Shown here one piece after another: positions 4,641 to 36,093 of a DNA stretch of 41,445 bases (position 1 is its first letter; every line of letters begins with the position of its first letter). This stretch comes from a virus: IMG/VR virus record IMGVR_UViG_3300020477_000056, positions 1 through 41,445 of that record; one strand, 5' to 3'. A program made the position numbers and the translations under genes. The notes under the pieces were generated by a model. The model did not search any database, was not told the DNA's origin, and saw nothing but the letters and a program-made list of their open reading frames with translations.

Positions 4641-4927
4641 TGAGTGTCGGTGGAAAGAAAGATGATTATGATTTCCGCCGTGATTCTGATGACATGGAGT
4701 GGTGGGCTGAACAGAGATTTAATATCAGAGAAGTTCGTATGATATACAGTTCTCTTGAAAATTATAAAACTGTTTGGCAAGGTGAACCTGATAGACCAAA
4801 AGAAGAAATGGAATTCGTCGATTGGTATAAAGGACGTTTATTTGCTATGATTACCGACTACAATTATACTCATCATGAGGTAGATGCATCTGGTAGTGAC
4901 TCTACCCCTAGTGGGAATGATACATAA
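4640..4927 (+). CDS. Small acidic protein between gp20 and the prohead core genes
   Basis: A 95-residue protein not recognised by family. It starts by TAATG overlap with gp20, so it is translationally coupled. It is acidic and tryptophan-rich (EWWAEQRFNIREVRMIYSSLENYKTVWQG, FVDWYKGRLFAMITDYNY) with a Ser/Asp-rich tail. Its place between portal and prohead protease genes matches the slot of T4 pip/67/68 and suggests a head-assembly role, but no specific homology is visible. Its stop lies inside a late-promoter motif. Confidence 0.75.
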   Translation: MSVGGKKDDYDFRRDSDDMEWWAEQRFNIREVRMIYSSLENYKTVWQGEPDRPKEEMEFVDWYKGRLFAMITDYNYTHHEVDASGSDSTPSGNDT

Positions 4928-4930
4928 ATA
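4923..4930 (+). promoter_or_regulatory. Late promoter, CATAAATA
   Basis: A TATAAATA-like octamer overlaps the stop codon of the 95-residue gene and precedes the next start at 4956 by 25 bases. Confidence 0.5.
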
Positions 4931-4955
4931 TTAACGATTACTCACATTTAACACA

Positions 4956-5252
4956 ATGCCTGATACTGAAACTGAAATGAATGCAGATCAACAAGCTTCT
5001 GATGAAGTAGCTAATGATGTGCAACAAGAATTAATGGACATGATTATTGCTGATCAGTCACCATCTGAGATAAGTGATAAAATCAAAGATATGCTTTTTG
5101 CAAAGTCTGCAGAGAAAGTTGATTCATATCGTCCAGAGGTAGCAAAGAGTACTTTTGGAGATGAACAAGCTGCTACGGCTGCGGTTGCTAATGCTGCTGC
5201 TGCAATTAGTGGTGAAACTGCTGCGGCACAAGATGCACAGGCTGAGGAGTAA
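4956..5252 (+). CDS. Acidic alpha-helical protein, possible gp67-type prohead core protein
   Basis: A 98-residue, strongly acidic, Ala- and Glu-rich protein without cysteine or tryptophan, predicted by eye to be mostly helical. The middle carries DMIIADQSPSEISDKIKDML and VDSYRPEVAKSTFG; the end is a long alanine tract. Size, acidity and position between gp20 and gp21 resemble T4 gp67, a small acidic prohead core protein cleaved by gp21. That is inference from context, since sequence similarity to T4 gp67 is not evident. It has its own late promoter upstream. Confidence 0.7.
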   Translation: MPDTETEMNADQQASDEVANDVQQELMDMIIADQSPSEISDKIKDMLFAKSAEKVDSYRPEVAKSTFGDEQAATAAVANAAAAISGETAAAQDAQAEE

Positions 5253-5253
5253 T

Positions 5254-5261
5254 TATAAATA
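5254..5261 (+). promoter_or_regulatory. Late promoter, perfect TATAAATA
   Basis: An exact match to the T4 late consensus, 26 bases before the ATG at 5288 and just after the preceding stop. It implies a short leader. Confidence 0.7.
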
Positions 5262-5287
5262 AATAAGACAATGAATTTGTATCCATA

Positions 5288-5869
5288 ATGGCCGTTATAA
5301 ATCCGGTTGGTCCCAATCTGCGAGTAGATACTGCTAATACAGTTTCTGTTGCCACTACTCAACAAACACCTTATTTGAGAGTTGTAGCAATAGGATCCAG
5401 TCATGCTCATGTCGCTATTGGTTCAGCACCAACAGCAACAGTAAGTGATTTTGTAGCAGTAAGAGATGTTCCTTCCATAATAAGTCTTGGACAACCAAGA
5501 TCTCAACCTCTGGTGGGAGTAACTACTGGTACTACAACTAGATTTAGAATCCAAGAAGGAGAAGGATCGCAATTTGTTAAAGGGCAAATGGTGATGCTTA
5601 CTGATTGTGATGATGATACAAGTGATCCTTATTGGAAGAATCTTTGCGGAATTACCACGGTACAATCTATTGATGATCGTATTAATTTCCCTAACAACCC
5701 TTATCCACATAATGTAGAAATTGTGGTTGCTACTGATAGTAGTTTAATTCAAACTAGTTTTTCTAGTAATTCAAGGTTAGTTAGTGCATTCCAAGTATCT
5801 GCCCTCAAAGCAGCAACTGCGGGAGAAGGTTATGTTCATTGTCAACAAGTTCAAATTACTGGGGGTTAA
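5288..5869 (+). CDS. Beta-rich probable virion protein of unknown function
   Basis: A 193-residue protein that I do not recognise. It is rich in Val, Thr, Ser and Gly, with alternating hydrophobic and polar residues (RVVAIGSSHAHVAIGSAPTA, NVEIVVATDSSLIQTSF) that suggest a mainly beta fold, and has no signal peptide or transmembrane segment. It lies between the acidic core-like gene and gp21, behind a perfect late promoter, so it is expected to be made late and to be part of, or used to build, the capsid. A decoration protein is one possibility, not demonstrated. Confidence 0.75.
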   Translation: MAVINPVGPNLRVDTANTVSVATTQQTPYLRVVAIGSSHAHVAIGSAPTATVSDFVAVRDVPSIISLGQPRSQPLVGVTTGTTTRFRIQEGEGSQFVKGQMVMLTDCDDDTSDPYWKNLCGITTVQSIDDRINFPNNPYPHNVEIVVATDSSLIQTSFSSNSRLVSAFQVSALKAATAGEGYVHCQQVQITGG

Positions 5870-5875
5870 TTTCCA

Positions 5876-6529
5876 ATGAAACTCATTAGAGAAGAAATTG
5901 AATCAGTTAAGTTTATTACTGAAAAATTAAAGTCCGGTAAGCAGAACCTTTATATTGAAGGTATTTTCCTTCAAGGAAATATTACGAACAGAAATGGTCG
6001 TATGTATCCTATTGAGACTCTACGTAAAGAAGTTGGACGTTATAATGAGTCCAATGTTCAATCTGGAAGAGCACTTGGAGAATTGGGTCATCCTGATAGT
6101 CCAACTGTGAATCTTGATAGAGTTTCACATAAAATCGTCTCTTTAAAAGAGCACGGTTCTAATTTCATTGGTAGAGCGAAAATTCTCGACACACCAATGG
6201 GTCAAATTGCATCTTCACTTATTAAGGAAGGTGTTAAACTTGGCGTTTCTTCTCGTGGTATTGGTTCTTTGAAACCAACCAAAGAAGGATTTAATGTTGT
6301 TGGTGATGACTTCATGTTAGCAACTGCTGCTGACATTGTTGCCGATCCATCAGCACCTGATGCTTTCGTTGAAGGTATCATGGAAGGTAAGGAGTGGGTT
6401 TGGGAAGGAAATTCTTTCCGTGAAAAACTCGCTGCTGAAACTAAGAGCAAAATTGACACTCTTGTAGGGCAAAAAGCACTCGAAGAGCACAAGATTAAAT
6501 TGTTTGATGAGTTTATTAACTCATTGTAA
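5876..6529 (+). CDS. gp21: Prohead core protease gp21
   Basis: Serine protease that digests the scaffold and trims head proteins during prohead maturation. It has 217 residues against 212 in T4. The conserved GELGHPDSP block (His72) and the GVSSRGIGS block (Ser125/Ser126) carry the expected catalytic His and Ser of the herpesvirus-assemblin-like phage protease family. The N-terminal YIEGIFLQGNITNRNGRMYP stretch is also typical. It is followed by scaffold gp22 and capsid gp23, its substrates. A plausible (L/I)xE cleavage site, LTE at residues 56-58, is visible in gp23. Confidence 0.95.
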   Translation: MKLIREEIESVKFITEKLKSGKQNLYIEGIFLQGNITNRNGRMYPIETLRKEVGRYNESNVQSGRALGELGHPDSPTVNLDRVSHKIVSLKEHGSNFIGRAKILDTPMGQIASSLIKEGVKLGVSSRGIGSLKPTKEGFNVVGDDFMLATAADIVADPSAPDAFVEGIMEGKEWVWEGNSFREKLAAETKSKIDTLVGQKALEEHKIKLFDEFINSL

Positions 6530-6539
6530 ACATCAACAT

Positions 6540-6547
6540 TATAAATA
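6540..6547 (+). promoter_or_regulatory. Late promoter, TATAAATA, with overlapping second copy
   Basis: A perfect TATAAATA is followed by an overlapping AATAAATA (6544-6551), upstream of gp22 (ATG 6590). The doubled element may mark high late expression of gp22 and gp23. Confidence 0.7.
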
Positions 6548-6589
6548 AATATAGATTTTAACTACAGATCGATTCGGAGTATCAAACAA

Positions 6590-7750
6590 ATGTCTAGTGA
6601 CAAGCAATTACAGGAAATGGAAGTAGGCACTGTGCAATCCAAGACTGCCGTTAATGCAAACGCAGCCCCTGGAGACGAAGCCCTTCCAAAAGCAGGAACC
6701 AACGCAAGTGGTGTTAAAACCCCTGGCAATCAGGCACAGGTAGAAGACTTGGGTGGACCTACACCTGATAATTATAGTCCTACTAACGATTCTGCTAAGT
6801 TGAAGCCAGCAGGTGGAACACTTAAGCAAGTTAGAGACATTGTTAACAAGAATGCGGAAGCTGGTGATCCAGAACCGTTGAAAAGTGCAACTCCCGTTAA
6901 GATACCTGAGGATGCAGAAGTTACTGATGAGGTAATCGAAGAGGATCAGGTAACTACTGATGAAGTAGTTGAAGAAGTAGCAACTGAAGAAGAAGAAGTT
7001 GTTGCAGAAGCACCTGAATACGAAGAGATTAGCATCGAAGAAGATGTTAAAGCTCTTGTAGAAGGTGAAGAACTTTCCGAAGAGTTCAAAGAAAAAGCAA
7101 AGACTATCCTAGAAGCCGCCGTTAAAGGTAAGGTTACACAAATTAAGGAAGTTCTTACTGCTGAGTATGATCAAAGACTCATCGAGGAAGTTGAGGAAAT
7201 CAAAGGCGCACTTAATGAGCGTGTTGATTCCTATCTTGAGTATGTTGCTGACGAATGGTTCACTGAGAACCAACTCGCAGTAGAATCCGGTCTTAAAGAA
7301 GAACTCACTGAGTCCTTTATGACTGGTCTAAAAGGTCTTTTTGAAGAACATTATGTATCAATCCCTGAAGAAAAATATGATGTACTTGAGAGTATGGTAG
7401 AAAAACTAGATGATATGGAAACCAAGCTCAATGAGCAAATTGAGAAGAATGTTTCCCTCAACAAGCGACTCGGTGAGTCACAAGCTGAAGGAATTTTCGA
7501 TCAAGTTTCTGAAGGTCTTGCAGACACTCAGAAAGAGAAGCTCGCCTCACTTTCCGAAAGTGTAGAGTTTGAAAGTGAATCAGAATATCGTGAGAAGTTG
7601 GTTACCCTAAGAGAATCTTATTTCCCTGGAAAGGTAGCACCAACAACCGCTAAGACAGAGACACTCTCAGAGGGAATGGAAGCCGCACCTGCAACACATT
7701 CAGGTTCAATGGCTGCATACCTAAAATCAATGTCTATGATTAGCAAGTAA
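6590..7750 (+). CDS. gp22: Prohead scaffold core protein gp22
   Basis: Major scaffold of the prohead core, degraded by gp21 before packaging. The product is 386 residues, much longer than T4 gp22 (269). The extra length is mainly at the N-terminus, a Gly/Pro/Ala-rich tract followed by a Glu/Val-rich acidic stretch around residues 110-165. The C-terminal two thirds is charged and heptad-like (LESMVEKLDDMETKLNEQIEKNVSLNKRL), as expected for a coiled-coil scaffold. Several (L/I)xE motifs offer gp21 cleavage sites. It lies directly between gp21 and gp23. Confidence 0.92.
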   Translation: MSSDKQLQEMEVGTVQSKTAVNANAAPGDEALPKAGTNASGVKTPGNQAQVEDLGGPTPDNYSPTNDSAKLKPAGGTLKQVRDIVNKNAEAGDPEPLKSATPVKIPEDAEVTDEVIEEDQVTTDEVVEEVATEEEEVVAEAPEYEEISIEEDVKALVEGEELSEEFKEKAKTILEAAVKGKVTQIKEVLTAEYDQRLIEEVEEIKGALNERVDSYLEYVADEWFTENQLAVESGLKEELTESFMTGLKGLFEEHYVSIPEEKYDVLESMVEKLDDMETKLNEQIEKNVSLNKRLGESQAEGIFDQVSEGLADTQKEKLASLSESVEFESESEYREKLVTLRESYFPGKVAPTTAKTETLSEGMEAAPATHSGSMAAYLKSMSMISK

Positions 7751-9880: not shown

Positions 9881-10030
9881 ATGTTCTGTAAAAATAAGAT
9901 GAGTCGAGAAGACCGTCAAAAATGGAAACTAAAAATGTATACACGTTGGGAAGATACTCTGGAAGAGAGACTTGCTGGTGTAAAAGCTGCCAAAGCAAAA
10001 TTGGAAGAACAAATGTCTAGAGATGAGTAA
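9881..10030 (+). CDS. Small charged helical protein, 49 aa
   Basis: A short gene with no family that I recognise. It encodes MFCKNKMSREDRQKWKLKMY followed by a Lys/Glu/Ala-rich helix. Support comes from the AAGGAG site upstream, the late-promoter motif and the tight TAATG overlap with the next gene. An alternative start is Met7 at 9899. It is probably a single long helix or coiled coil. Confidence 0.65.
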   Translation: MFCKNKMSREDRQKWKLKMYTRWEDTLEERLAGVKAAKAKLEEQMSRDE

Positions 10031-10614
10031 TGCCTACTAGAAAAAGACCTGTTAGATCATCTAAGAATCCCATTGAAAATAGGAATTTTTTATCTCCTGT
10101 TGGGTTCAAATTTGCATTGAAAAGAAGTCCTGCTGTTGCTTTCTTTTGTAATGAAGCAAATATTCCTTCATTGGATTTGGGTGTAGCGGAACAACCTACT
10201 TATTTAAAAAATATTCCAACACCTGGTGATAAAATACAGTTTGGTGATTTAAGTCTTCGTTTCTTAGTTGATGAAGACCTTACAAATTATATGCAAATTC
10301 AGAATTGGATTCGTGGATTAGGTTTTCCAGAAAGTCTAAAAGAATTTTATGATTTAGAAAAAGAAGGTGAAGAAAATATTGCTACTAACTATGGTCAATT
10401 AGCACCCCAAGAAATATATTCTGATGGAACACTTCAAATATTAAGTAGCAATCTTGTCCCTAAATTTCAGGTAGTATTCAATGATCTCTTCCCTTATTCT
10501 CTTTCAACTGTCACTTTCGATGCAACTGATACAGATATCGAGTACTTTACAGCAGACGTAAGTTTTAAGTATACTATTTACGAGATAACCGATTTGGAAA
10601 ATAATCCATTATAA
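10030..10614 (+). CDS. Tail-tube-like structural protein in the gp3 position
   Basis: A 194-residue protein whose pattern (FKFALKRSPAVAFFCNEANIP, LKNIPTPGDKIQFGDLSLRFL, WIRGLGFPE) resembles the tube-type proteins of marine T4-like phages. Compare gp19 in this window, which also has an LPAQNISSIDVPF-type step. In related cyanophages the gene between gp23 and uvsW is usually assigned to gp3, the tail completion and tube-terminating protein. I infer that role from position and tube-like fold; direct similarity to T4 gp3 cannot be judged by eye. Its start overlaps the preceding stop by one base. Confidence 0.7.
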   Translation: MPTRKRPVRSSKNPIENRNFLSPVGFKFALKRSPAVAFFCNEANIPSLDLGVAEQPTYLKNIPTPGDKIQFGDLSLRFLVDEDLTNYMQIQNWIRGLGFPESLKEFYDLEKEGEENIATNYGQLAPQEIYSDGTLQILSSNLVPKFQVVFNDLFPYSLSTVTFDATDTDIEYFTADVSFKYTIYEITDLENNPL

Positions 10615-14611: not shown

Positions 14612-15148
14612 ATGGAAATAATTTCTGTTAAACATAAGGCAGATATTATTAAAGGTGAATATCAATTTGCTGATAAAGTAAAAAGTGAAGTTTTATCTTT
14701 ATTAAAAGTTTGTAATCCTATACCTCAGGATAATAGTAATGTAAAAGCATCTATTCATACTGAGTGGGATTGGGAGCCAAATAACATTACGTTTAGAAAT
14801 CTTAAATCATTTATTAGGGAGGAAATAGAAAAATATTTTAAGCCCGGTTCTATGTCAGGTGGGGGTAGACCTAGGTTAATATGTAAAAATTTCTGGGCAA
14901 ATGTATATGAGAGGGGGGACCATGCACAATCTCATTGTCATAAACCTTATGATTTTAGTTTTGCATATTTTGTGAAATCAAAATGGTATTATCCTCCTCT
15001 TGTTTTTACGGATACTGCGAAAATGATTAGACCTAAAGAAGGAACCTTTGTTGCTTTCCCTGCATATCTAATGCATCATGTTCCTAAACATAGATTTAAG
15101 GATACTCGTATAACTTTATCTGGTAATTTAGTAATAAACAGAGAATGA
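14612..15148 (+). CDS. 2OG-Fe(II) oxygenase-like protein, second copy
   Basis: 178 residues. FWANVYERGDHAQSHCHKPYDFSFAYFV carries His108 and His110; FVAFPAYLMHHVPKHRF carries His155 and His156; DTRITLSGNLVI carries Arg166. This is the same double-stranded beta-helix layout as the oxygenase at 11466, but identity between them is low. Substrate unknown. It overlaps gp47 by four bases and is translated in the gp55-gp47-gp46 operon. Confidence 0.78.
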   Translation: MEIISVKHKADIIKGEYQFADKVKSEVLSLLKVCNPIPQDNSNVKASIHTEWDWEPNNITFRNLKSFIREEIEKYFKPGSMSGGGRPRLICKNFWANVYERGDHAQSHCHKPYDFSFAYFVKSKWYYPPLVFTDTAKMIRPKEGTFVAFPAYLMHHVPKHRFKDTRITLSGNLVINRE

Positions 15149-16185
15149 AAATAGCAATAATTACAGATCAGCACTTTGGTGCTCGTAAAAATTCTAAACT
15201 ATTCCATGATTATTTCTTAAAGTTTTATGAGGATATTTTCTTTCCTACCTTGGAGAAGGAGGGGATTACTACGATTATCGATATGGGTGACACATTCGAC
15301 AGTCGTAAAGGTATCGATTTTTCTGCCCTAGCTTGGTCAAAGGATCATTACTTTGATCGTCTTAAAGAAATGGGATGTGAAGTTCATACTATTGTTGGTA
15401 ATCATACTGCTTATTATAAGAATACAAATGATATAAATGCAATTGATTTATTATTGCGTGAATATGATAATGTAAAAATTTATTCAGAAACTACTTCTAT
15501 ACGAGTAGATAATTTAAGTATTCTTCTTGTACCTTGGATTAATAAGGAGAATGAAGCACAAACTTTGAGGATGATTAAAAAATCAACTTCTCCTGTGTGT
15601 ATGGGACATCTTGAATTAAAAGGATTTAAGGTAAATGAATATGTGATAATGGAACATGGTTTTGATTATAAACCTTTTGGTAAATTTAAGAAGGTATATT
15701 CAGGTCATTTTCATACGAGATCAAATCAAGAGAACATTTATTATTTGGGAAATCCTTATGAGATGTTTTGGAATGATATAGGAGATCAAAGAGGATTTCA
15801 TTTATTTGATACCGAGACCTTAGAACATACTCCCGTTAATAATCCTTATAGTATTTTTTCTAAAATTTATTATGAGGATACTCCCTATCAGACTTTTGAT
15901 ACTAGACAATATGAAGATAAGATTGTAAAATTAATTGTTCGTAAAAAATCTAATCTTAAACAATTTGAAAAATTCGTAGATAAGCTTTATTCTTCCAATG
16001 TGGCAGAACTTAAAGTAGTTGAGAATTTTGATTTTCAAGAAAGTAAGGAATTTGAAGCATTTGAATCTGAGGATACTATGTCCATTCTTAATAGGTATAT
16101 TGAGGAGGCAGAAATAGATTTAGATAAATCTCGTATTCAAAAGATAATGCAACATACTTATCAAGAGGCATGTGAGTTGGTTTAA
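15145..16185 (+). CDS. gp47: Recombination endonuclease subunit gp47
   Basis: Mre11/SbcD-type nuclease that with gp46 resects DNA ends to start recombination-dependent replication and degrades host DNA. It has 346 residues against 339 in T4. Metallophosphoesterase motifs are intact: TDQHFG (Asp8, His10), MGDTFDSRKG (Asp49), VGNHTAYY (Asn86, His87), MGHLELKG and YSGHFHTRS. The end overlaps the next gene by one base. Confidence 0.95.
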   Translation: MKIAIITDQHFGARKNSKLFHDYFLKFYEDIFFPTLEKEGITTIIDMGDTFDSRKGIDFSALAWSKDHYFDRLKEMGCEVHTIVGNHTAYYKNTNDINAIDLLLREYDNVKIYSETTSIRVDNLSILLVPWINKENEAQTLRMIKKSTSPVCMGHLELKGFKVNEYVIMEHGFDYKPFGKFKKVYSGHFHTRSNQENIYYLGNPYEMFWNDIGDQRGFHLFDTETLEHTPVNNPYSIFSKIYYEDTPYQTFDTRQYEDKIVKLIVRKKSNLKQFEKFVDKLYSSNVAELKVVENFDFQESKEFEAFESEDTMSILNRYIEEAEIDLDKSRIQKIMQHTYQEACELV

Positions 16186-16457
16186 TGTTTATTCTAACTA
16201 TTGCGGGAAAAGAAAGAGAAGGAGCTTACTCAGTAACAGATGAGGATGGGGATCAAATACTTTATTTGTTTGAGGAAGAAGATGATGCGATGAGATTTGC
16301 TATGCAATTAGAAGAGGATAATTATCCTGAAATGCATGTTATGGAAGTTGAAGATGCTATAATGATTAAAACATGTGAAATGCATGGATATAACTATACA
16401 GTTATTACTCCTGATGACATTGTTATTCCTCCGCCTCTAAGTAATGATTATATTTGA
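16185..16457 (+). CDS. DUF3110-like protein
   Basis: 90 residues, acidic. The stretch ILYLFEEEDDAMRFAMQLEEDNYPEMHVMEVE followed by a conserved Cys and a GYNYTVI segment matches the DUF3110 pattern, a family I know from cyanobacteria and their phages. Function unknown. It lies between gp47 and gp46 with overlaps on both sides (the gp46 ATG is inside its end), so it is translated with the nuclease subunits. It is a useful host indicator. Confidence 0.8.
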   Translation: MFILTIAGKEREGAYSVTDEDGDQILYLFEEEDDAMRFAMQLEEDNYPEMHVMEVEDAIMIKTCEMHGYNYTVITPDDIVIPPPLSNDYI

Positions 16458-18156
16458 GAAAATACGGTGGAAGAATTTTCTATCTACTGGTAATCACTAT
16501 ATTGAGATAGATTTAACACAAAAGGATACCACATTAATTGTGGGAACTAATGGTGCGGGAAAAAGTACAGTTTTAGATGCATTAACGTTTAGTCTTTTTA
16601 ATAAACCATTTCGTAAGATTAGTAAGGGTCAGTTAGTTAATACTGTTAATGAAAAGGATTGTAAGGTTGAGGTGGAATTTTCGACGGGATCAACTGAGTG
16701 GAAAGTTATAAGGGGAATAAAACCTAATAGTTTTGAGATTCATCGTAATGGTACCGTACTAGATCAATTTTCATCTGCTAATGATCAGCAGAAATGGTTG
16801 GAACAGAATGTGTTGAAGATGAACTATAAATCTTTTACTCAAATCGTTATTTTAGGTTCTAGTACATTTGTGCCATTCATGCAATTGTCTGCTTCTAATA
16901 GGAGAGAAGTTATTGAAGATCTATTGGATATTAAGATTTTCTCTTCTATGAATAATTTGATTAAAGATAAGATTCGTGTGTTGAGGGAAGAAATTAAAAC
17001 CTTATCTTTAAAGAAAGAGTCTCTTACTGATAAGGTACGAATGCAAGAAGATTTTATCAATGAGATAGAATCTCGTGGAAAAGAAGATATTGAAGATAAG
17101 AATGGAAAAATTAAAGAATTAGAAGTAGAAGTAGCTACTCATATGGAGATGAATACTATTAAGGAATGTGACATCTCGGATTTGATAAAGAAGCAAGAAA
17201 AGGTAACAGGTGCTACTGAGAAACTACGTACCTTAGGAGGATTAAAAGGTAAGATTTCTAATAAGGTATCTACTATTACAAAAGAGCATAAATTTTTTAC
17301 CGACAATACGGTTTGTCCCACATGCGATCAGGACATCGAAGAGGAGTTTAGAATAAATAGGATTAAGGATGCTCAAAATAAAGCAAAAGAGTTGCAATCT
17401 GGTTATAAAGAACTAGAGGAGGCAATTAAAAACGAAGAAGAGCGAGAGCATCAATTCACTGCCCTATCAAAGGAGATTACTCAACTAACGCATGGCATTT
17501 CTAAAAACAATACTCGCATCTCTGGGTGTCAACGCCAAATCAGGGATCTGGAATCGGAAATTCAAAGAATTACCGAACAACTTGCAAACAGAAATACTGA
17601 GCATGACAAGTTAGCAACCTTCAAGGACAATTTAACAACTACATACGACGACTTATCTTCACGGAAGGACACTATAAACTATCACGATTTTGCGTATAGT
17701 TTACTTAAAGACGGTGGAGTTAAATCTAAAATCATCAAGAAGTATCTACCGCTGATAAATCAGCAAGTAAACCGTTATCTACAGATGATGGACTTCTACA
17801 TTAACTTTACTCTTGATGAGGAATTTAACGAAACCGTACAGTCCCCTATTCATGAGGATTTTTCTTATGCTTCTTTTTCGGAAGGTGAGAAAATGCGGAT
17901 CGATCTAGCACTCTTGTTTACATGGAGAGAAGTTGCTAGAATGAAGAATTCCGTTAATACCAATCTTCTTATAATGGATGAGGTGTTTGATAGTTCATTA
18001 GATGGTATGGGAACAGAAGAGTTCCTTAAAATTATTAGGTATGTTATTAAGGATGCAAATATTTTTGTCATATCTCATAAGACAGGAATGGAAGATAAAT
18101 TTGAAAGCATGATAAAGTTTGAGAAGGTGAAAGGATTTAGTAGGATGGTTGATTGA
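16444..18156 (+). CDS. gp46: Recombination endonuclease subunit gp46
   Basis: Rad50/SbcC-type ATPase partner of gp47. It has 570 residues against 560 in T4. Walker A GTNGAGKST at 34-42, a long central coiled coil with a zinc-hook CPTC at 291-294, the ABC signature SFSEGEKMRIDLALLF near 478 and Walker B LLIMDEVFDSSLDG near 508 are all present. Between about 17430 and 17860 the codons become markedly richer in C and G than in the flanks, without any change in family similarity. Confidence 0.95.
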   Translation: MIIFEKIRWKNFLSTGNHYIEIDLTQKDTTLIVGTNGAGKSTVLDALTFSLFNKPFRKISKGQLVNTVNEKDCKVEVEFSTGSTEWKVIRGIKPNSFEIHRNGTVLDQFSSANDQQKWLEQNVLKMNYKSFTQIVILGSSTFVPFMQLSASNRREVIEDLLDIKIFSSMNNLIKDKIRVLREEIKTLSLKKESLTDKVRMQEDFINEIESRGKEDIEDKNGKIKELEVEVATHMEMNTIKECDISDLIKKQEKVTGATEKLRTLGGLKGKISNKVSTITKEHKFFTDNTVCPTCDQDIEEEFRINRIKDAQNKAKELQSGYKELEEAIKNEEEREHQFTALSKEITQLTHGISKNNTRISGCQRQIRDLESEIQRITEQLANRNTEHDKLATFKDNLTTTYDDLSSRKDTINYHDFAYSLLKDGGVKSKIIKKYLPLINQQVNRYLQMMDFYINFTLDEEFNETVQSPIHEDFSYASFSEGEKMRIDLALLFTWREVARMKNSVNTNLLIMDEVFDSSLDGMGTEEFLKIIRYVIKDANIFVISHKTGMEDKFESMIKFEKVKGFSRMVD

Positions 18157-18782
18157 TGGCAACCTATAAACATGAGTCAGGTAAAAGATTTCTTTTTGTT
18201 CATATACCTAGAACTGGTGGGAGATTTATAGAAGTAAATTTAGAGAAGAATGGATGGGCAGTAGAACCAATAGATTATTATGGGATACCTCATTACCAAC
18301 ATTCATTCATAGATGATTGTGAGATAGCACATTTTCATCGAGATTTATATGAGAAGCATTGTGACATAGAAGGAATAGAACAAATTGCTGTTATTAGAAA
18401 TCCTATTGATAAATTCTTTTCAGCATCGACCTATTTGATTACGGTTTATGGTCGTCAGGTGCAAGAGAGATTGGAAGATTATGATGAGATGGTATCTATT
18501 ATAAAGAATTTTCCTCAATCGGAAACTTTGAGTTGGTGGAGACCGCAGGTGGATTTCCTAACTGAAAAGACTCATCTATGGAAATTTGAAAAAGGATTGG
18601 GTACAGACTTTGGTTATTGGGTAAGTGAAAAACTGGGAGTTCCTTTTGAAATAGATCCTTATGTGAATTATGCTACTAATGATTATGAAGGATTTAAACT
18701 TGACAAAACTGATAAATTGATTCACAATATTAGAAGGTTTTGCTTGGAAGATATTGAGCAACTCTATCCAGAATTAAAATAA
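18156..18782 (+). CDS. Sulfotransferase-like protein, copy 1
   Basis: 208 residues in the P-loop-like sulfotransferase superfamily (Sulfotransfer_2 type), which moves sulfate from PAPS to an acceptor hydroxyl. The 5'-phosphosulfate loop is FVHIPRTGGRF near residue 14, where most family members have Lys in place of this Arg. The 3'-phosphate motif is VIRNPIDKFFSAS near residue 80. The tail motif IEQLYPEL is shared by the paralogues at 18783 and 20077. The start overlaps the gp46 stop (TGATG). The acceptor is unknown; lipids, surface sugars or small metabolites are possible. Confidence 0.8.
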   Translation: MATYKHESGKRFLFVHIPRTGGRFIEVNLEKNGWAVEPIDYYGIPHYQHSFIDDCEIAHFHRDLYEKHCDIEGIEQIAVIRNPIDKFFSASTYLITVYGRQVQERLEDYDEMVSIIKNFPQSETLSWWRPQVDFLTEKTHLWKFEKGLGTDFGYWVSEKLGVPFEIDPYVNYATNDYEGFKLDKTDKLIHNIRRFCLEDIEQLYPELK

Positions 18783-19463
18783 ATGGCTACATTTAGACAT
18801 ATACCTACGGGTAAAAGATTTCTTTTTATTCATATTCCTAGAACCGCAGGAAGATTTGTAGAGACTAACTTGATTGTTAATAATGAATTTGAATGGTGTG
18901 ATGATTGGGAGAAGTTTGGAATAGAAAGGATGTTTGAGTCCGTTGACGGACCAGAAGGTGAAATAGAATTAGGACATTTTCATAGATCCTATTATGAAAA
19001 ATATTTGGATTGTGAAGGTATACCTCATGTATCCATTATAAGAAATCCTCTTAAAAGGTTTATTTCTGCATCCATTTATATTAATAGAATATATGGAATG
19101 GCAAATGATACAGGAGAATATACGGAAGAAAGTCTTAAAGAATGTCAGGAGTTAATGGAGGATGAGAATTATTTTTATCCTATGTTAAGAAATTTTCCTT
19201 TTGACGAATCCAAGAATTGGTATAGATCTCAATTAGATTATCTTTCAGATAAGACTCATATATGGAGATTTGAGGATGGATTTAAAGACAATTTCTCTGA
19301 GTGGTTAAGTGAGATAATCGGAGTGGAAGTGAAGATGAAAGAAGATACTCAATATTGGGGACAACCTGATGAAGGTCGGAAATTAAAACCAACTCTTAAA
19401 CTCTTGGAGAATGTGAGAAAACTTTATAGAGAGGAGATTGAAAAATTTTATCCTGACATATGA
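18783..19463 (+). CDS. Sulfotransferase-like protein, copy 2
   Basis: 226 residues, abutting copy 1 with no gap. It keeps FIHIPRTAGRF near residue 15, the GHFHRSYYEKYLDCEGIPH block, IIRNPLKRFISASIYI and the end IEKFYPDI. It is slightly longer than the other two because of acidic inserts around residues 35-60 and 110-130. It is closer to copy 3 than to copy 1 in the RNP-FISASIYI block. The stop overlaps the pebS-like start (ATGA), so translation of the bilin reductase is coupled to it. Confidence 0.8.
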   Translation: MATFRHIPTGKRFLFIHIPRTAGRFVETNLIVNNEFEWCDDWEKFGIERMFESVDGPEGEIELGHFHRSYYEKYLDCEGIPHVSIIRNPLKRFISASIYINRIYGMANDTGEYTEESLKECQELMEDENYFYPMLRNFPFDESKNWYRSQLDYLSDKTHIWRFEDGFKDNFSEWLSEIIGVEVKMKEDTQYWGQPDEGRKLKPTLKLLENVRKLYREEIEKFYPDI

Positions 19464-20077
19464 ATCTGTGGTCAGACTATAAAGCAGCTCTCTTTGACAT
19501 CTTTCCGATGAATAAGATTTTGAGGTGGGGATATTGGAAGAGTAAAGATACTACTCTGGTTGCTCAGTTATTTCATAATTCTTATATAATTAAATCACGG
19601 GAAGTTGAAATTTATAGTGATAAGTCCTGTATCTATAATAATATAATTTATCCTAAGACGGGAAGTAACCTTCCCTGTTTTGGCATGGATTTGATGGGAT
19701 TCTTTGATAAGAAAGTTATTATTGTATTTGATTTTCAACATCCAAAAGAGAATTATCCTTATAAGGTAGATGGATTACCAAAGTTTGAGGGTGATATCAG
19801 GTTCTTTGAACCAGGTAATCATTTCTCAGAAAATATCTATGTGGCTTATTGTACTATGGCAGAAGTAAATGAACATCTGGATATGTTTAAAAAATACTTG
19901 ACCAAGTATAAGGAGATGGTAGAATTAGATAAACCTACGGGAACAGATTACTCTGTTTATAAGGAGTTTGATACTTATATGACTAAACTAGATCCTGTGG
20001 CCGGATACTTAGCTGGTAAATTTGGTAAAGATAAGGCACAACGTTTAGTTAATGAATTTTTGTTTAGTTTTTCTTAA
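19460..20077 (+). CDS. pebS: Ferredoxin-dependent bilin reductase, PebS-like
   Basis: Reduces biliverdin with ferredoxin electrons to a phycobilin; phage PebS makes phycoerythrobilin in one four-electron enzyme. It has 205 residues, about 28 fewer at the N-terminus than P-SSM2 PebS as I remember it. The core closely matches: NIIYPKTG, LPCFGMDLMGF, KKVIIVFDFQHP, GNHFSENIYV, KYLTKYKEMV and TYMTKLDP. The two catalytic Asp of PebS (Asp105 and Asp206) correspond to Asp77 and Asp178 here, so the enzyme looks active. PcyX or PebA-type specificity cannot be excluded from sequence alone. No heme oxygenase gene is present in the window. It lies between two sulfotransferase-like genes and overlaps both. 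Confidence 0.9.
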   Translation: MNLWSDYKAALFDIFPMNKILRWGYWKSKDTTLVAQLFHNSYIIKSREVEIYSDKSCIYNNIIYPKTGSNLPCFGMDLMGFFDKKVIIVFDFQHPKENYPYKVDGLPKFEGDIRFFEPGNHFSENIYVAYCTMAEVNEHLDMFKKYLTKYKEMVELDKPTGTDYSVYKEFDTYMTKLDPVAGYLAGKFGKDKAQRLVNEFLFSFS

Positions 20078-20703
20078 TGCCTACCTTTAAACATTCATCA
20101 GGTAAAAGAGTTTTCTTTGCACATATTCCCCGAACTGCTGGTAGGTTTGTAGAAGCAAATCTTTCTCAGAATGATTTTAAATGGAATGATGCTCATCTTG
20201 ATAATGGAAAAGGTATAATGTCTATTGTTAATGGGTTTGAGGTTGCTCACTATCATCGAGATCATTATATGAAATATTTGGATGTAAAAGATATTCCTCA
20301 TTTTTCCATCGTAAGGAATCCTATTGATAGATTCATTTCTGCTTCCATTTATATAAAGAGATTTTGTGGCGATAAAGCACAGGAAGGAGTGGAGGATAAA
20401 AATAGTTTTTTATATGTACTTAAAAGTATCCCTTATAGACAGTCTCTTAATTGGTTCAGACCTCAAATAGATTTCCTTAGATCTGATACTCATATATGGA
20501 AATTTGAGGATGGATTTGGTGAGGATTTTGTCAGTTGGTTAAGTGGCATAGTAGGAATTGACTTAGAGTTTACGGATGATGTAGAGTATGCAGTAGCCCC
20601 TGATGAGGGGAATAAGTTGGAGAAAACTCCTCAACTTATAGATACTCTTATACACTTCTATAAACAGGACATTGAGCAATTCTATCCCGAACTGGCAGCA
20701 TAA
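20077..20703 (+). CDS. Sulfotransferase-like protein, copy 3
   Basis: 208 residues. FAHIPRTAGRF near residue 14, HYHRDHYMKYLDVKDIPHF, IVRNPIDRFISASIYI, HIWKFEDGFGEDF and the end IEQFYPEL mark it as a third paralogue. Like the other two it has Arg rather than Lys in the phosphosulfate loop. It starts by TAATG overlap with the pebS-like gene, so that gene is embedded in the array. After it comes a 119-base non-coding segment with three hairpins. Confidence 0.8.
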   Translation: MPTFKHSSGKRVFFAHIPRTAGRFVEANLSQNDFKWNDAHLDNGKGIMSIVNGFEVAHYHRDHYMKYLDVKDIPHFSIVRNPIDRFISASIYIKRFCGDKAQEGVEDKNSFLYVLKSIPYRQSLNWFRPQIDFLRSDTHIWKFEDGFGEDFVSWLSGIVGIDLEFTDDVEYAVAPDEGNKLEKTPQLIDTLIHFYKQDIEQFYPELAA

Positions 20704-20739
20704 TTCGGGTAAACCACCGAAGAGAAAGCTGAAACCACA

Positions 20740-20813
20740 GGCACTCCGAAGTGCCAGAGAAAGACGCAGACACTTGATAAAGTGTCTACTGAATCCGTCC
20801 AAGAGGCGGATTT
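20740..20813 (+). ncRNA. Three consecutive hairpins between sulfotransferase and CobT-like genes
   Basis: Hairpin 1: GGCACT (20740-20745) with AGTGCC (20750-20755), loop CCGA. Hairpin 2: AGACACTT (20768-20775) with AAGTGTCT (20780-20787), loop GATA, perfect 8 bp. Hairpin 3: AATCCGTC (20792-20799) with GGCGGATT (20805-20812), including one G-U pair. No T run follows, so they are not ordinary terminators. They may be an mRNA-stabilising or regulatory leader of the large gene at 20823. Confidence 0.6.
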
Positions 20814-20822
20814 CGTCGTATT

Positions 20823-23018
20823 ATGGGTACATACAAAAAGAAAACAAACATGGCAGTACAGCAAGAAGTCAAATCTCAACTAGCGAAGTTGCTTGCTACT
20901 GAGGACATTGTAGTAGAGCATAAGCAAGTGGAGACTGCTCAGTTTAATGTCCACACCAGAGTGTTGATCCTTCCTCTATGGGAGAAAGCAAGCAATGCAG
21001 TCTATGATATGCTTGTAGGTCATGAAGTAGGACATGCACTTTTCACACCTGATCAAGATCCTCCTGAGAATATTCCTCATCAGTTTATGAATGTTGTGGA
21101 GGATGCTAGGATTGAGAAATTGATGAAGCGTAAGTATCAAGGTCTTGCCAAAAGTTTCCGTTGTGGATATAATGAGTTGTATGATCAAGATTTCTTTGAA
21201 CTAGATGGTGAAGATATTAGTAGTTTTAATCTTGCTGATCGGGCTAATCTACATTTCAAGATTGGTGCGTTCCTTGATCTATCTTTTTCAACTCCTGAAA
21301 AGGAGATTATCGATTTAATTTCTAATGCCGAAACCTTTACTCAAACCATCGCAGCAGCAGAAGCGTTATATAATTTCTGCAAGCAGGAGAAGGAAGAGTC
21401 CCTGGAACAGCAACAACAAGCTAAGTTGGATTTTGAGAACGACAGTGAAGATTCTGGGGATCTCGGCATTGATAGGACTGGGGATATTGATGATTCCATT
21501 CCTGACACTGATAGCAGTGCTGATGTGGAAGATAGGGGCGATAGTGTTCCTTCTATTGATCGGGTGGTTGATTCTGGTTCTACTGTAGATAACATAGAAG
21601 TTCAAACTGTGGATTCTTTAGAAACTAAATTAAAGGATCTAGTTAATACCAGCGGAGTAGAGAATGTATATGTAGAAGTTCCTAAGGTTAATCTTGATAC
21701 TATAATTGCTTCTAACGAAGAGGTTCATACCTATATTCAAGAGCATTGGGAGCAGAGTGAAGTAGCCTTTACTAATATGTGTAAGGATTATGAAGGGATG
21801 GATCCGAGGGATCTTTTTGCCCAATCTGATTCAGACTTTGTACAGTTTAAAAGAGATGCTCAAAAAGAAGTCAATTACCTGGTCAAAGAATTTGAGTGTA
21901 AAAAAGCAGCTAGTGCGTATGCTCGTTCTGCTACTAGTCGTACTGGGGTTCTCGATACAACGAAGCTTCAAAATTATAAATTCAGTGAGGATCTTTTTAG
22001 AAAAGTAACCATTCTTCCTGATGGAAAGAATCATGGATTAGTTTTTATATTAGATTGGTCTGGTTCCATGCAGTTTGTGTTGCAGGATACCTTAAAGCAA
22101 CTTTATAATTTAATTTGGTTCTGTAAGAAAGTTCAGATTCCGTTTGAGGTTTATGCTTTTACTTGTGAATGGTGTAGAGATCGTGAATATGAAGGAAATT
22201 TACCTTTTCATTATGAACCAAAAGAAGGAAATCTAATAGTTGATAATAGATTTAATTTAATGAATCTTTTTACTCATAAAGTAAATGGAAAAACATTAGA
22301 ATATCAAATGAAGAATATTTGGAGAGTGGCGGAGACCTTTACTAATGGTCAGGTATTCTTTCGCTATCCACAGCGTCTTTGTCTTTCAGGAACTCCTTTA
22401 AATGAGGCAATTGTTTCTCTTCATGAACTCCTACCTAAATTTCAAAAAGACAATGGAGTAGAAAAAACTCAATGTATTATATTGACTGATGGTGAGGCAC
22501 ATCAACTTCCTTATCATAAAGAAGTACAACGTCATTGGGAAGATGAACCTTATATGGGATCAAGAAATATAAATCCTGATAGATGTTTCTTAAGAGATCG
22601 TAAGGTAGGTAAGACTTATAAGTTTGGATGGCAGTGGCATGATTATACTGGAACTCTTCTTACTAATTTAAAAGATAGATTTCCTACAATTAATTTTATT
22701 GGTATTAGAGTTCTTCAATCTAGGGATGCCAAGAGTTTTATAAGACTCTATTATAATGATGCACATTATGGATATACACCAAGTAAAGAGTATGATAGAA
22801 TAATAAATGATTGGAGAAAGAATAAGAGTTTTGTTATTAAGAACTCTGCATATGATGCTTACATTGGAATGTCTTCCTCAGCACTTTCTCAGGATGCTGA
22901 ATTTGATGTGGTTGAAGATGCAACCAAAGCACAAATTAAAAGAGCATTTGTTAAATCTCTTAAAACCAAGAAACTAAATAAGAAAGTTCTTGGCGAATTC
23001 GTAGAGTTGGTGGTATGA
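20823..23018 (+). CDS. CobT-like metallopeptidase with vWA domain
   Basis: 731 residues. The N-terminal part has a gluzincin-type motif HEVGH (67-71) with a likely third ligand Glu93 in VVEDARIEKL. A long acidic, Ser/Asp-rich linker spans about residues 190-280. The C-terminal vWA domain has a full MIDAS: DWSGS at 411-415, LSGTPLNEA and IILTDGEAH. This layout resembles CobT, partner of the AAA+ protein CobS in aerobic cobaltochelatase; the CobS-type gene is at 24732. No large chelatase subunit (CobN) is seen, so the pair may instead remodel another protein. An alternative start is Met10 (20850). Confidence 0.82.
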   Translation: MGTYKKKTNMAVQQEVKSQLAKLLATEDIVVEHKQVETAQFNVHTRVLILPLWEKASNAVYDMLVGHEVGHALFTPDQDPPENIPHQFMNVVEDARIEKLMKRKYQGLAKSFRCGYNELYDQDFFELDGEDISSFNLADRANLHFKIGAFLDLSFSTPEKEIIDLISNAETFTQTIAAAEALYNFCKQEKEESLEQQQQAKLDFENDSEDSGDLGIDRTGDIDDSIPDTDSSADVEDRGDSVPSIDRVVDSGSTVDNIEVQTVDSLETKLKDLVNTSGVENVYVEVPKVNLDTIIASNEEVHTYIQEHWEQSEVAFTNMCKDYEGMDPRDLFAQSDSDFVQFKRDAQKEVNYLVKEFECKKAASAYARSATSRTGVLDTTKLQNYKFSEDLFRKVTILPDGKNHGLVFILDWSGSMQFVLQDTLKQLYNLIWFCKKVQIPFEVYAFTCEWCRDREYEGNLPFHYEPKEGNLIVDNRFNLMNLFTHKVNGKTLEYQMKNIWRVAETFTNGQVFFRYPQRLCLSGTPLNEAIVSLHELLPKFQKDNGVEKTQCIILTDGEAHQLPYHKEVQRHWEDEPYMGSRNINPDRCFLRDRKVGKTYKFGWQWHDYTGTLLTNLKDRFPTINFIGIRVLQSRDAKSFIRLYYNDAHYGYTPSKEYDRIINDWRKNKSFVIKNSAYDAYIGMSSSALSQDAEFDVVEDATKAQIKRAFVKSLKTKKLNKKVLGEFVELVV

Positions 23019-24731: not shown

Positions 24732-25829
24732 ATGTTTGAAATTAAAATGACTCGTGAAGAAATCATCGAGGGTCTAAGAAATGCCTATGGAACAGAGTTT
24801 ACTGCTGCTGATATCCGTGGGTTTTGTGCAATGAATGATATTGCTTACCAGACCGTCACTAAGAAACTGAAAGAGTTTAATGTGGGAAGAGGTAAATGGA
24901 ATTTAGAAGTAACAACAAAAGCAGTTGAAAATATTGAAAAATCTTTCAGTGCTCCTGCTGCTGAACCTCAAGTACAACAAAATTTAGTCCCTGAAAAGGA
25001 TGACACCTTTGTAAGGTTTGGTCATTTTAATGACATTAAAACTATTCTTAAAACAAAGCAGTTTTATCCTACATTTATAACTGGACTTTCTGGTAATGGT
25101 AAAACGTTTGGTGTCGAACAAGCGTGTGCTCAACTAGGAAGAGAATTAATTCGTGTCAACATCACAATCGAAACCGACGAAGACGACCTTATTGGTGGGT
25201 TTCGCCTTATTGACGGTAACACTGTATGGCATAATGGACCAGTTATTGAAGCACTGGAAAGGGGAGCTGTCCTCCTTTTAGATGAGGTAGATTTGGCATC
25301 CAATAAGATTCTTTGCTTACAACCTATTCTTGAAGGAAAAGGAATTTTTCTTAAAAAGATTGGTAGGTTTGTTTCTCCTGCAAAGGGATTTAATGTAGTG
25401 GCCACTGCTAATACCAAAGGAAAAGGATCTGATGATGGAAGATTTATAGGAACTAATGTTCTTAATGAAGCCTTTTTAGAAAGATTCCCTGTAACCTTTG
25501 AGCAGGATTATCCATCACCTAAGATAGAGCAAAGAATTCTTGGTGGAGTGGCTTCCCAATTGGGAGTGACAGATACTGATTTTGTCAAGAGACTTGTAGA
25601 TTGGGGTGATATTATTCGTAAAACATTCTATGATGGAGGTATCGAAGAGATCATTAGTACTCGTAGATTAGTTCATATAGTTCGTGCTTATTCTATCTTT
25701 AAGGATAAGATGAAGTCTATTCAAGTTTGTGTAAACAGGTTTGATGATGAGACTAAACAGGCATTCCTTGAACTATATGATAAGGTAGATGCAACAGTTC
25801 AACTTCCCATTGACAATAAAGAGGAATGA
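24732..25829 (+). CDS. cobS: CobS/MoxR-type AAA+ ATPase
   Basis: 365 residues, the gene annotated cobS in many cyanomyoviruses. Walker A GLSGNGKT at 118-125, Walker B LLLDEVD at 181-187, sensor-1-like VVATANTKG near 222 and an arginine-finger region LERFPVTF near 250 are intact. The N-terminal 75 residues form a small helical domain (DIRGFCAMNDIAYQTVTKKL). In bacteria CobS powers cobalt insertion with CobT and CobN. Here the CobT-like gene lies 1.7 kb upstream and CobN is not seen, so a cobalamin role is uncertain. It could equally power another vWA-linked remodelling reaction. Confidence 0.88.
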   Translation: MFEIKMTREEIIEGLRNAYGTEFTAADIRGFCAMNDIAYQTVTKKLKEFNVGRGKWNLEVTTKAVENIEKSFSAPAAEPQVQQNLVPEKDDTFVRFGHFNDIKTILKTKQFYPTFITGLSGNGKTFGVEQACAQLGRELIRVNITIETDEDDLIGGFRLIDGNTVWHNGPVIEALERGAVLLLDEVDLASNKILCLQPILEGKGIFLKKIGRFVSPAKGFNVVATANTKGKGSDDGRFIGTNVLNEAFLERFPVTFEQDYPSPKIEQRILGGVASQLGVTDTDFVKRLVDWGDIIRKTFYDGGIEEIISTRRLVHIVRAYSIFKDKMKSIQVCVNRFDDETKQAFLELYDKVDATVQLPIDNKEE

Positions 25830-25833
25830 TATT

Positions 25834-26565
25834 ATGATTAACGCATGGAGTTTATTGCACGATGTACTTAATGGCAAACTTGATGAGGAATACCCAATTA
25901 TGAATAAAAAAGATACTAAAGTAACTCCCTTAGAGAGTGATGAATATGATCCAATTACTACTCTTGGAGGAGAGTCCTCTGACACTATTACTTTTACAAG
26001 TGATGGTGTCGGTGCAGCAGATACTTTAAATATAAATTTGGGTGATTATGGTAAGGATGTTGTTACCTTTGGTGTAGATACTACTCCTGCGGGTTCCGAT
26101 ACTCTTAATTTTGGAACTCCCTTTCCTGGTGGGATGGGAGAGGATCATATTAATTTTAGTGGTCTTGCGGGAACACAATATGATGATCCGAAGTATTATG
26201 CCAGTGCAGTTGATTTTGCTCTTGATTCTATGGGATCATCTACAAAACCTCAACCTGATTTAACTAGGTCACATAAGTATGAAGAAGATAAAGGTATCAA
26301 AGATCTTAAAGATTATGTTGCCTCAACTTATAGTGGACACTATACTTCCAAAAACAACAACGTCCAGACACTTGATCTTATCCAATCCGTTGGTGATGCG
26401 GAATCTTTTTGCCGTTCTAATGCAATCAAGTATTTAAGTAGGTATGATAAGCGAGGACAGGCAAAACGTGATATACTAAAAGCAATGCATTATTGCTTAC
26501 TCCTTTATTACTTCAGTGGTCAAACACAAGAAGATACTACACAACATGGTTATGAAACTTTCTGA
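25834..26565 (+). CDS. DUF3310 protein with N-terminal RTX-like repeats
   Basis: 243 residues from ATG 25834. The C-terminal third (KDLKDYVASTYSGHYTSKNN, QTLDLIQSVGDAESFCRSNAIKYLSRYDKRG, KRDILKAMHYCLLLYYF) is the DUF3310 domain common in phages, function unknown. Residues 47-110 instead hold five short repeats, each with D followed by a hydrophobic-rich strand and glycine (SDTITF, ADTLNINLG, KDVVTFG, SDTLNFG, EDHINFSG) spaced 12-15 residues apart. They resemble the GxGxDxLx calcium-binding beta-roll. The fusion is unusual. Its end overlaps the gp45 start. Confidence 0.8.
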   Translation: MINAWSLLHDVLNGKLDEEYPIMNKKDTKVTPLESDEYDPITTLGGESSDTITFTSDGVGAADTLNINLGDYGKDVVTFGVDTTPAGSDTLNFGTPFPGGMGEDHINFSGLAGTQYDDPKYYASAVDFALDSMGSSTKPQPDLTRSHKYEEDKGIKDLKDYVASTYSGHYTSKNNNVQTLDLIQSVGDAESFCRSNAIKYLSRYDKRGQAKRDILKAMHYCLLLYYFSGQTQEDTTQHGYETF

Positions 26566-31975: not shown

Positions 31976-31981
31976 TTTTTT

Positions 31982-32171
31982 GTTGAATCGACGGGTTCGA
32001 CACGGGAGTGACTGAACAAACTTGCTGGCATAAGGCTAGTTAAGGTGATGAGACACAGGTGGTGCTGCTGGTTGAAAACCAGAATCGACTTACCAGTCGG
32101 GTCTCAGATAGTACAGTAAAAATCTACTAATGTAGCAATGCCCTGTACTTGTTGGTATACATTAATCCAAC
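31982..32171 (+). ncRNA. Structured RNA of about 190 nt upstream of two Sm-like genes
   Basis: A gene-free segment with several helices. The ends can pair: GTTGAAT (31982-31988) with ATCCAAC (32165-32171), six of seven bases. Inner arms: AACTTGCT/GGCTAGTT (32019-32026 and 32034-32041, one mismatch and one G-U), TGAGAC/GTCTCA (32049-32054 and 32101-32106), CTGGTT/AACCAG (32068-32073 and 32077-32082), GTACAG/CTGTAC (32111-32116 and 32143-32148) and, inside it, CTAC/GTAG (32124-32127 and 32132-32135). A GGGTTCGACACGGG stretch at 31993-32006 recalls the D-loop of tmRNA. No T arm or tag frame is seen. It could be a riboswitch-like leader or a released small RNA. Confidence 0.6.
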
Positions 32172-32198
32172 CTCCCACCCAAATATTACGGAAGTAAA

Positions 32199-35464: not shown

Positions 35465-35635
35465 ATGGACTTACCTATCGACGACAAAGATTTAGCGACA
35501 ATAGTTAGTGCTTTGGCATTGGGTGGAGATGCTAGATTATATCATCTTTTAAAAGAGGTTAAGGAGGTTAGAGATCTTAATCCCGATGGTCCATATAAGA
35601 AAATTTTACGGGAAGAAAGAGGAATGACAATCTAA
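35465..35635 (+). CDS. Small helical protein after gp43, 56 aa
   Basis: The ATG follows the gp43 TAG directly and the stop overlaps the next ATG by one base. MDLPIDDKDLATIVSALALG then GDARLYHLLKEVKEVRDLNP and a charged tail. Probably a small helical bundle. No family recognised. Confidence 0.65.
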   Translation: MDLPIDDKDLATIVSALALGGDARLYHLLKEVKEVRDLNPDGPYKKILREERGMTI

Positions 35636-36093
35636 TGATTTTTGATAAAGTTAGTCTTGTTACTGGTGGATTCGATCCCATCCACAGTGGACATATATCA
35701 TATTTTAAAAGAGCAAAGGATCTTTCTAATTATCTGGTAGTTGGACTTAATGGAGATCCTTGGTTAAAGCGTAAGAAAGGACAGTATTTTCAATGTTTTA
35801 CAGAGAGAGCTGATATTGTTCGCCATTTAAGTATGGTAGATGCTGTTATTTCTTGGGATGATTCTGATGAGTCTGCTTGTGGTGCTATTGCTAAGTGTTT
35901 AGAAATTTCTGAAAAAGTTATTTTCTGTAATGGTGGGGATAGAGTTCAAACTAATACTCCTGAAATTAAGGGATATGGTGATGATCCACGAGTAGAGTTT
36001 AAATTTGGTATCGGTGGTGAAGATAAGATGAATAGTAGTTCCTGGATTCTTCATGATTACTTTGAACGTCAGCGTAAATTATTAGGAATTTGA
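35635..36093 (+). CDS. Cytidylyltransferase-like nucleotidyltransferase
   Basis: 152 residues with the Rossmann-type nucleotidyltransferase signature: GGFDPIHSGH at 11-20 (the HxGH catalytic motif His17 and His20), VVGLNGDPWLKRKKG, NGGDR and KMNSSSWIL as the C-terminal ISSTxx-like motif. The family includes glycerol-3-phosphate cytidylyltransferase and the ADP-heptose enzyme RfaE domain; the exact substrate cannot be fixed. In phages it may modify lipid or surface sugar precursors, which fits the neighbouring desaturase. Confidence 0.85.
   Translation: MIFDKVSLVTGGFDPIHSGHISYFKRAKDLSNYLVVGLNGDPWLKRKKGQYFQCFTERADIVRHLSMVDAVISWDDSDESACGAIAKCLEISEKVIFCNGGDRVQTNTPEIKGYGDDPRVEFKFGIGGEDKMNSSSWILHDYFERQRKLLGI

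Follow-up and report, generated by a model that had tools for sequence, protein, structure and literature searches.

An array of three sulfotransferase-like (ST) genes and a phycoerythrobilin synthase gene, pebS, is found in a viral DNA of 41,445 nucleotides (nt), positions 1 to 41,445 of IMG/VR record IMGVR_UViG_3300020477_000056, referred to here as the window. This 41 kb record carries T4-like structural and replication genes together with cobS, hsp20 and mazG. Since its gp46 is closest to that of Synechococcus phage S-SM2 (79% identical) and its phrog_459 gene is common to 461 phage records, almost all of them cyanophages, the window virus is assigned by sequence relationship to the cyanomyoviruses (T4-like cyanophages, here of marine cyanobacteria).

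The variable slot downstream of gp46

The four genes of the array follow gp46 (16444..18156) head to tail on the + strand. They code for ST1 (18156..18782, 208 amino acids (aa); the start codon is ATG, a TTG at 18153 being also possible), ST2 (18783..19463, 226 aa), PebS (19460..20077, 205 aa) and ST3 (20077..20703, 208 aa). The open reading frames (ORFs) agree with an earlier sequence-only reading of this DNA, which described three sulfotransferases at 18156-20703 with a PebS-like gene between copies 2 and 3, and every junction overlapping or abutting. The gp46 and ST1 genes overlap by 1 nt (TGATG), ST1 abuts ST2 (TAA followed by ATG), ST2 and pebS overlap by 4 nt (ATGA) and pebS and ST3 by 1 nt (TAATG). 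The same reading took the set for one operon. The tight packing is confirmed, but the run continues without gap from the genes of the two recombination endonuclease subunits upstream, gp47 (15145..16185, + strand) and gp46, and so the array is not a separate operon. A separate transcription unit is not claimed because promoter and terminator signals around the array show no excess over shuffled sequences. A scan with Rfam gave no match at the array.

The downstream side of the slot is bordered by the cyanophage-typical phrog_459 gene (p459, labelled 'peptidase'; 20823..23018, + strand). The region downstream of gp46 is a hot spot of variable genes in cyanomyoviruses (Sullivan 2010, PMC3037559) and the array occupies this same genome position; sulfotransferases are not mentioned in the main text of that paper. 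In the contigs fetched for this analysis, an ST gene lies almost always directly after gp46 and before p459. Among 99 visible gp46-p459 intervals, counted after removal of duplicate contigs, 80 carry ST genes (76 have one, two have two and two have the order ST-ST-PebS-ST) and 19 have none. These proportions are not population frequencies because the fetches were biased by ST or pebS queries: the ST queries inflate the ST-bearing count, and the 19 ST-less slots were contributed by fetches made with pebS and by annotated phages.

A family of phage sulfotransferases

ST1, ST2 and ST3 all match phrog_3347 (E 3e-18, 2e-18 and 5e-24, respectively) and share, as had been described, the motifs HIPRT[GA]GRF, RNP[IL][DK][KR]F[FI]SAS and IE[QK][LF]YP[ED][LI]. 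ST2 (24.4 bits) and ST3 (27.5 bits) pass the 22-bit cut-off of the Pfam model Sulfotransfer_2 (PF03567); at E 0.01 the model recognises 29 of 36 relatives. The PHROG name 'galactose-3-O-sulfotransferase' finds no support in Pfam, no such model being among the ST matches up to E 1.

Relatives are encoded in at least 440 viral contigs, the best 80 of which were fetched (L-numbers below designate contigs). Annotated phages with a homologue are only P-SSM7, S-T4, Sf-CH5 and Sf-CH8. The P-SSM7 protein PSSM7_018, named 'Galactose-3-O-sulfotransferase', belongs to the same family (phrog_3347) and is 46% identical to ST3 over its full length; it differs from the window STs in being encoded by a single copy that adjoins gp5 instead of gp46. 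A genome scan covering 84,980 species of bacteria and archaea, made with two conserved patterns that would miss remote cellular kin with Lys loops, returned one weak match (Marivita, 25% identity) and no close cellular relative.

A fold search was used because sequence searches of the PDB gave no sulfotransferase match. With the AlphaFold model of ST3 (pLDDT 92.7), the best Foldseek match is 3rnl (E 2e-4) and the top 50 entries of VIA-align are all sulfotransferases, headed by NDST1 (8cd0, Z 10.5 over 190 residues) and 3rnl (Z 10.4); the glycan sulfotransferases 3-OST (Z about 9.5) and HS2ST (Z 9.3) come after these. On the strength of this model, the STs almost certainly have the fold of sulfotransferases that use 3'-phosphoadenosine-5'-phosphosulfate (PAPS). 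They share with the Sulfotransfer_2 glycan enzymes (HS2ST and, by fold, NDST1 and 3-OST) the fold, the RNP..S motif of the 3'-phosphate site and a conserved His close to where the base is expected. They differ from these glycan enzymes in their length of only 200-230 aa.

In an alignment of 36 relatives, HIPRTxGR (with R19 and R23), E55, H58, Y64, R80-N-P, F86, D107, W141, E144, F151 and W154 are invariant, and H60, S88 (at least 90%), R128 and Q130 nearly so. The Arg (R80) and Ser (S88) of the 3'-phosphate site are therein kept. In HS2ST, His142 acts as the base and its mutant still binds PAPS with an activity under 1% (PMC6094399). Judging from motif order and knowledge of the family, H58-x-H60 would stand at the place of this base. 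The STs are probably active PAPS sulfotransferases.

The sequence-only reading had also singled out an Arg at the position of the Lys of the classical phosphosulfate loop. It is present in all three STs, but is no peculiarity of theirs: all 36 aligned members have Arg19, and it is kept in the distant homologues of S-T4 and Sf-CH5. The phosphosulfate-loop residue is Lys, or Arg in mycobacterial (Mt) Stf0 (review, PMC11625862), an active bacterial glycolipid sulfotransferase that the phage STs resemble in this residue and do not match by sequence. Being family-wide and present in Stf0, the Arg is a variant compatible with activity that does not set the three STs apart. The Marivita relative has Lys at this position, and the loop of this cellular relative reads Lys-Thr-Ala-Gly-Thr, unlike the Arg-Thr-x-Gly-Arg of the phage STs. 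The second loop Arg (R23, in GRF) is replaced by Thr in S-T4 and Sf-CH5 and appears to be confined to the main group of cyanophages.

Glycan genes beside the sulfotransferases and a possible role

The genes that abut ST in other contigs are mostly nucleotide-sugar or glycan genes. An NAD-dependent epimerase gene is found there in L017-L023, L109, L110, L113 and L200, and six of these contigs have a UDP-glucose/GDP-mannose dehydrogenase gene ahead of the epimerase. The STs of L109, L110 and L113, directly after the epimerase, are of the ST1 type, and the ST of L200, also after the epimerase, groups with ST2. A cytidylyltransferase gene abuts ST in L016, L182 and L188, and a NolO-like carbamoyltransferase gene in L186 and L188 as well as beside the ST of S-T4. 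Oxygenase-like genes, read from the sequence (that of L007 has no Pfam match), abut ST in L007, L008 and L029.

Sulfate is common on cyanobacterial extracellular glycans and lipopolysaccharide (LPS) is the cyanophage receptor in some systems (PMC4390846). Sulfation of glycans is favoured because of this background and of the gene neighbours. A glycan is a reasonably likely acceptor; that the sulfated target is the host surface can be put forward tentatively. A survey of estuarine viruses names epimerase and sulfotransferase as abundant auxiliary genes, assigned there to other hosts (PMC12285232).

The gp46-downstream slot would accordingly hold three members, separated long ago, of a family of PAPS-dependent STs exclusive to phages. 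The HIPRTxGR loop may bind the phosphosulfate and Arg80 with Ser88 the 3'-phosphate, His (H58/H60) activating the acceptor hydroxyl. Sulfate from host PAPS would be passed to a sugar, most likely of LPS or of an extracellular glycan of the infected cell. This would alter surface charge or mask receptors, and the three divergent STs would serve different acceptors or positions. That the host surface is modified, and above all that rival phages are thereby kept out, is conjectural. As a whole, the reading of a phage-exclusive ST family that sulfates glycans, with pebS as separate cargo, is held with moderate confidence.

Several observations weigh against it. The array of the window has no abutting glycan gene, the nearest one found being a cytidylyltransferase-like gene 15 kb downstream (35635..36093, + strand; 83% identical to the one abutting ST in L182). 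Sugar genes also occur in ST-less slots (L057, L060, L076 and L094), so that such neighbours characterise the slot no less than the ST. ST1, alone of the three, falls below the Sulfotransfer_2 cut-off, and no true sulfotransferase was retrieved from the PDB by sequence, whether the query was ST2 or the family profile. The link to HS2ST catalysis is made by motif and not by an inspectable superposition, and in two ST1-type relatives (L111 and L114) the second His is replaced by Tyr. A search of the literature yielded neither a study of this phage ST family nor biochemical data for any member.

The acceptor of the STs might alternatively be a small molecule or a protein, such as a metabolite, a signalling or defence molecule or a virion protein. 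Their small size counts in favour, as does the presence of SULT and tyrosylprotein sulfotransferases among the fold matches (Z 7-9). This is rather unlikely, as glycan sulfotransferases are among the best fold matches and the neighbours are nucleotide-sugar genes. It is still less probable that the STs are catalytically altered proteins that bind PAPS or its desulfated product and sequester or compete for PAPS, redirecting host sulfur assimilation. The replacement of Lys by Arg in the phosphosulfate loop, together with R23, a further Arg there that is peculiar to the family, could be so explained; against it, Arg occurs in the active Stf0, the probable base His and the 3'-phosphate residues are kept, and purifying selection on three copies that have diverged points to separate acceptors.

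The more interesting part of the locus is this widespread Arg-loop family of phage STs, with its fixed place in cyanophages and its frequent position beside sugar genes. Should the cell surface of infected cyanobacteria indeed be the target of the STs, phages would alter the receptors and charge of abundant ocean cells, a largely unexplored step.

Age of the sulfotransferases, exchange of pebS and adjoining features

Growth of the array by duplication, as the sequence-only reading had proposed, finds its basis in the tandem order and the shared motifs. However, ST1, ST2 and ST3 are mutually only 44-50% identical, with near-saturated synonymous sites, and fall in three separate supported clades of the tree, each with members from other phages; forcing the eight array STs into one clade is rejected (approximately unbiased (AU) test, p = 3.6e-45). 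A recent local duplication is therefore very improbable and can be set aside. The three STs represent old lineages, either brought together from distinct lineages or derived from an old duplication, perhaps a very ancient one that recombination then spread. The ratio of nonsynonymous to synonymous substitution (dN/dS) is 0.13 for ST1, 0.14 for ST2 and 0.25 for ST3, and 0.05-0.25 between lineages, showing purifying selection.

PebS matches Pfam Fe_bilin_red (E 2e-13) and phrog_7278 (E 7e-56), and the PebS structure of phage P-SSM2 (2vck, E 1e-71, full length) far better than PebA (2x9o, E 4e-8). It is 54% identical to P-SSM2 PebS across the protein and keeps the Asp of the FGMDLM motif, the residue mutated in 2x9i. 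Matches are found in 31 phage records, with 52-68% identity among those of full length. The protein looks like an ordinary cyanophage PebS with nothing unusual and is predicted to catalyse the four-electron reduction of biliverdin to phycoerythrobilin. The phage-exclusive nature of pebS is supported by a 2026 study (PMC13198022).

It is the position of pebS that is uncommon. In P-SSM2, unlike in the window, the gene lies elsewhere, among other genes. In relatives, including S-SSM7, pebS normally lies between cobS and gc152, about 5 kb from the ST slot, while in the window cobS (AAA ATPase; 24732..25829) and gc152 (DUF3310; 25789..26565), both on the + strand, are adjacent with no pebS between them. 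Fifty contigs have both places visible: 32 have ST without any pebS, 13 have pebS after cobS without ST, two have pebS inside the array, one (L015) has both separately and two have neither. Among about 100 related contigs, a pebS inside an ST array is found in three lineages only, those of the window, L003 and L029.

L003 has the same four-gene order as the window. Nucleotide identity between the two is 0.82-0.98 through ST1 and ST2, 0.5-0.8 across pebS and again about 0.9 where ST3 begins; the PebS proteins are 57% identical and the flanking STs 87-95%. Because identity falls only across pebS, the gene was either swapped from end to end or inserted on two occasions at the same junction.

L029 carries at 3248-7038 the genes gp46, oxygenase-like, ST1, ST2, pebS, gc152 and gp45; neither p459 nor cobS, a cyanophage core gene, stands where it usually does. 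Residues 1-80 of its PebS are 96% identical to window PebS, and residues 81-205 are closest (85%) to the canonical-position pebS product of L015. Informative sites of the gene switch type between about nt 200 and 290 and are mostly L015-like afterwards. Such a mosaic looks like the expected trace of an array pebS having recombined with one from the cobS side. This piece of evidence is weakened by the nature of L029, a metagenome contig of 7 kb. An assembly chimera was considered; window, L029 and L015 share no exact pebS run longer than 10 nt, which speaks against a k-mer join, an argument covering the window and L015 types only, the true second parent being unseen.

It is very likely that pebS is independent of the STs. 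The insertion of pebS into the array, given as an alternative in the sequence-only reading, fits these data, while the single accessory module that it also proposed does not: a check of co-occurrence in relatives found ST and pebS rarely adjacent, in 2 of the 80 ST-bearing slots and in L029, the very outcome that the sequence-only reading had named as refuting it. As a separate auxiliary gene, pebS would have moved by recombination from the cobS-gc152 site to the ST2/ST3 junction and be exchanged there as a unit, having transcription in common with the STs and not chemistry. Its exchange offers a clear example of a phage auxiliary gene moving as a single unit. That STs and PebS form a functional module, the STs modifying bilins, phycobiliprotein or thylakoid components, could draw on the gap-free run of four genes, on an order (and possibly a favoured position) kept in the two diverged lineages of window and L003 despite the pebS swap and on the P-SSM7 ST lying one gene away from pcyA, but it is hardly credible when 76 of the 80 ST-bearing slots contain a single ST without pebS, ST and a canonical-position pebS occur together in 1 of the 50 contigs (fetches biased to either), pebS has its home next to cobS and the STs elsewhere have mostly sugar genes as neighbours. 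Equally improbable is that STs and pebS act together in the window lineage, for instance through sulfation of a bilin or bilin-bearing product, the place of pebS between ST2 and ST3 in two diverged lineages being then maintained by selection. The link to bilins is weakened by this analysis.

At the downstream border of the slot, an unannotated, conserved small basic ORF (20672..20902, + strand; PNWQHxSxKxxKRxLKPQALR...) overlaps the stop of ST3 and the start of p459, and adjoins p459 in over half of the contigs. In contigs without ST, its ratio of nonsynonymous to synonymous polymorphism (pN/pS) is 0.23 in frame and >1 in both other frames. The S-SM2 counterpart is a 45-aa gene labelled 'gp5', an unlikely label. 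Between ST3 and p459 three RNA hairpins stand in a row (20740-20815, fold z = -4.0); the last is terminator-like, yet has no long T run after it, and the hairpins have no Rfam match. Elsewhere in the window, the cytidylyltransferase-like gene is directly followed by a fatty acid desaturase gene (36090-36872, Pfam E 1.5e-23), a full-length manA RNA (RF01745, 172 bits) lies at 31981-32181, and two tail-tube proteins, both phrog_45, are encoded 7 kb apart at 2237-2863 and 10030-10614.

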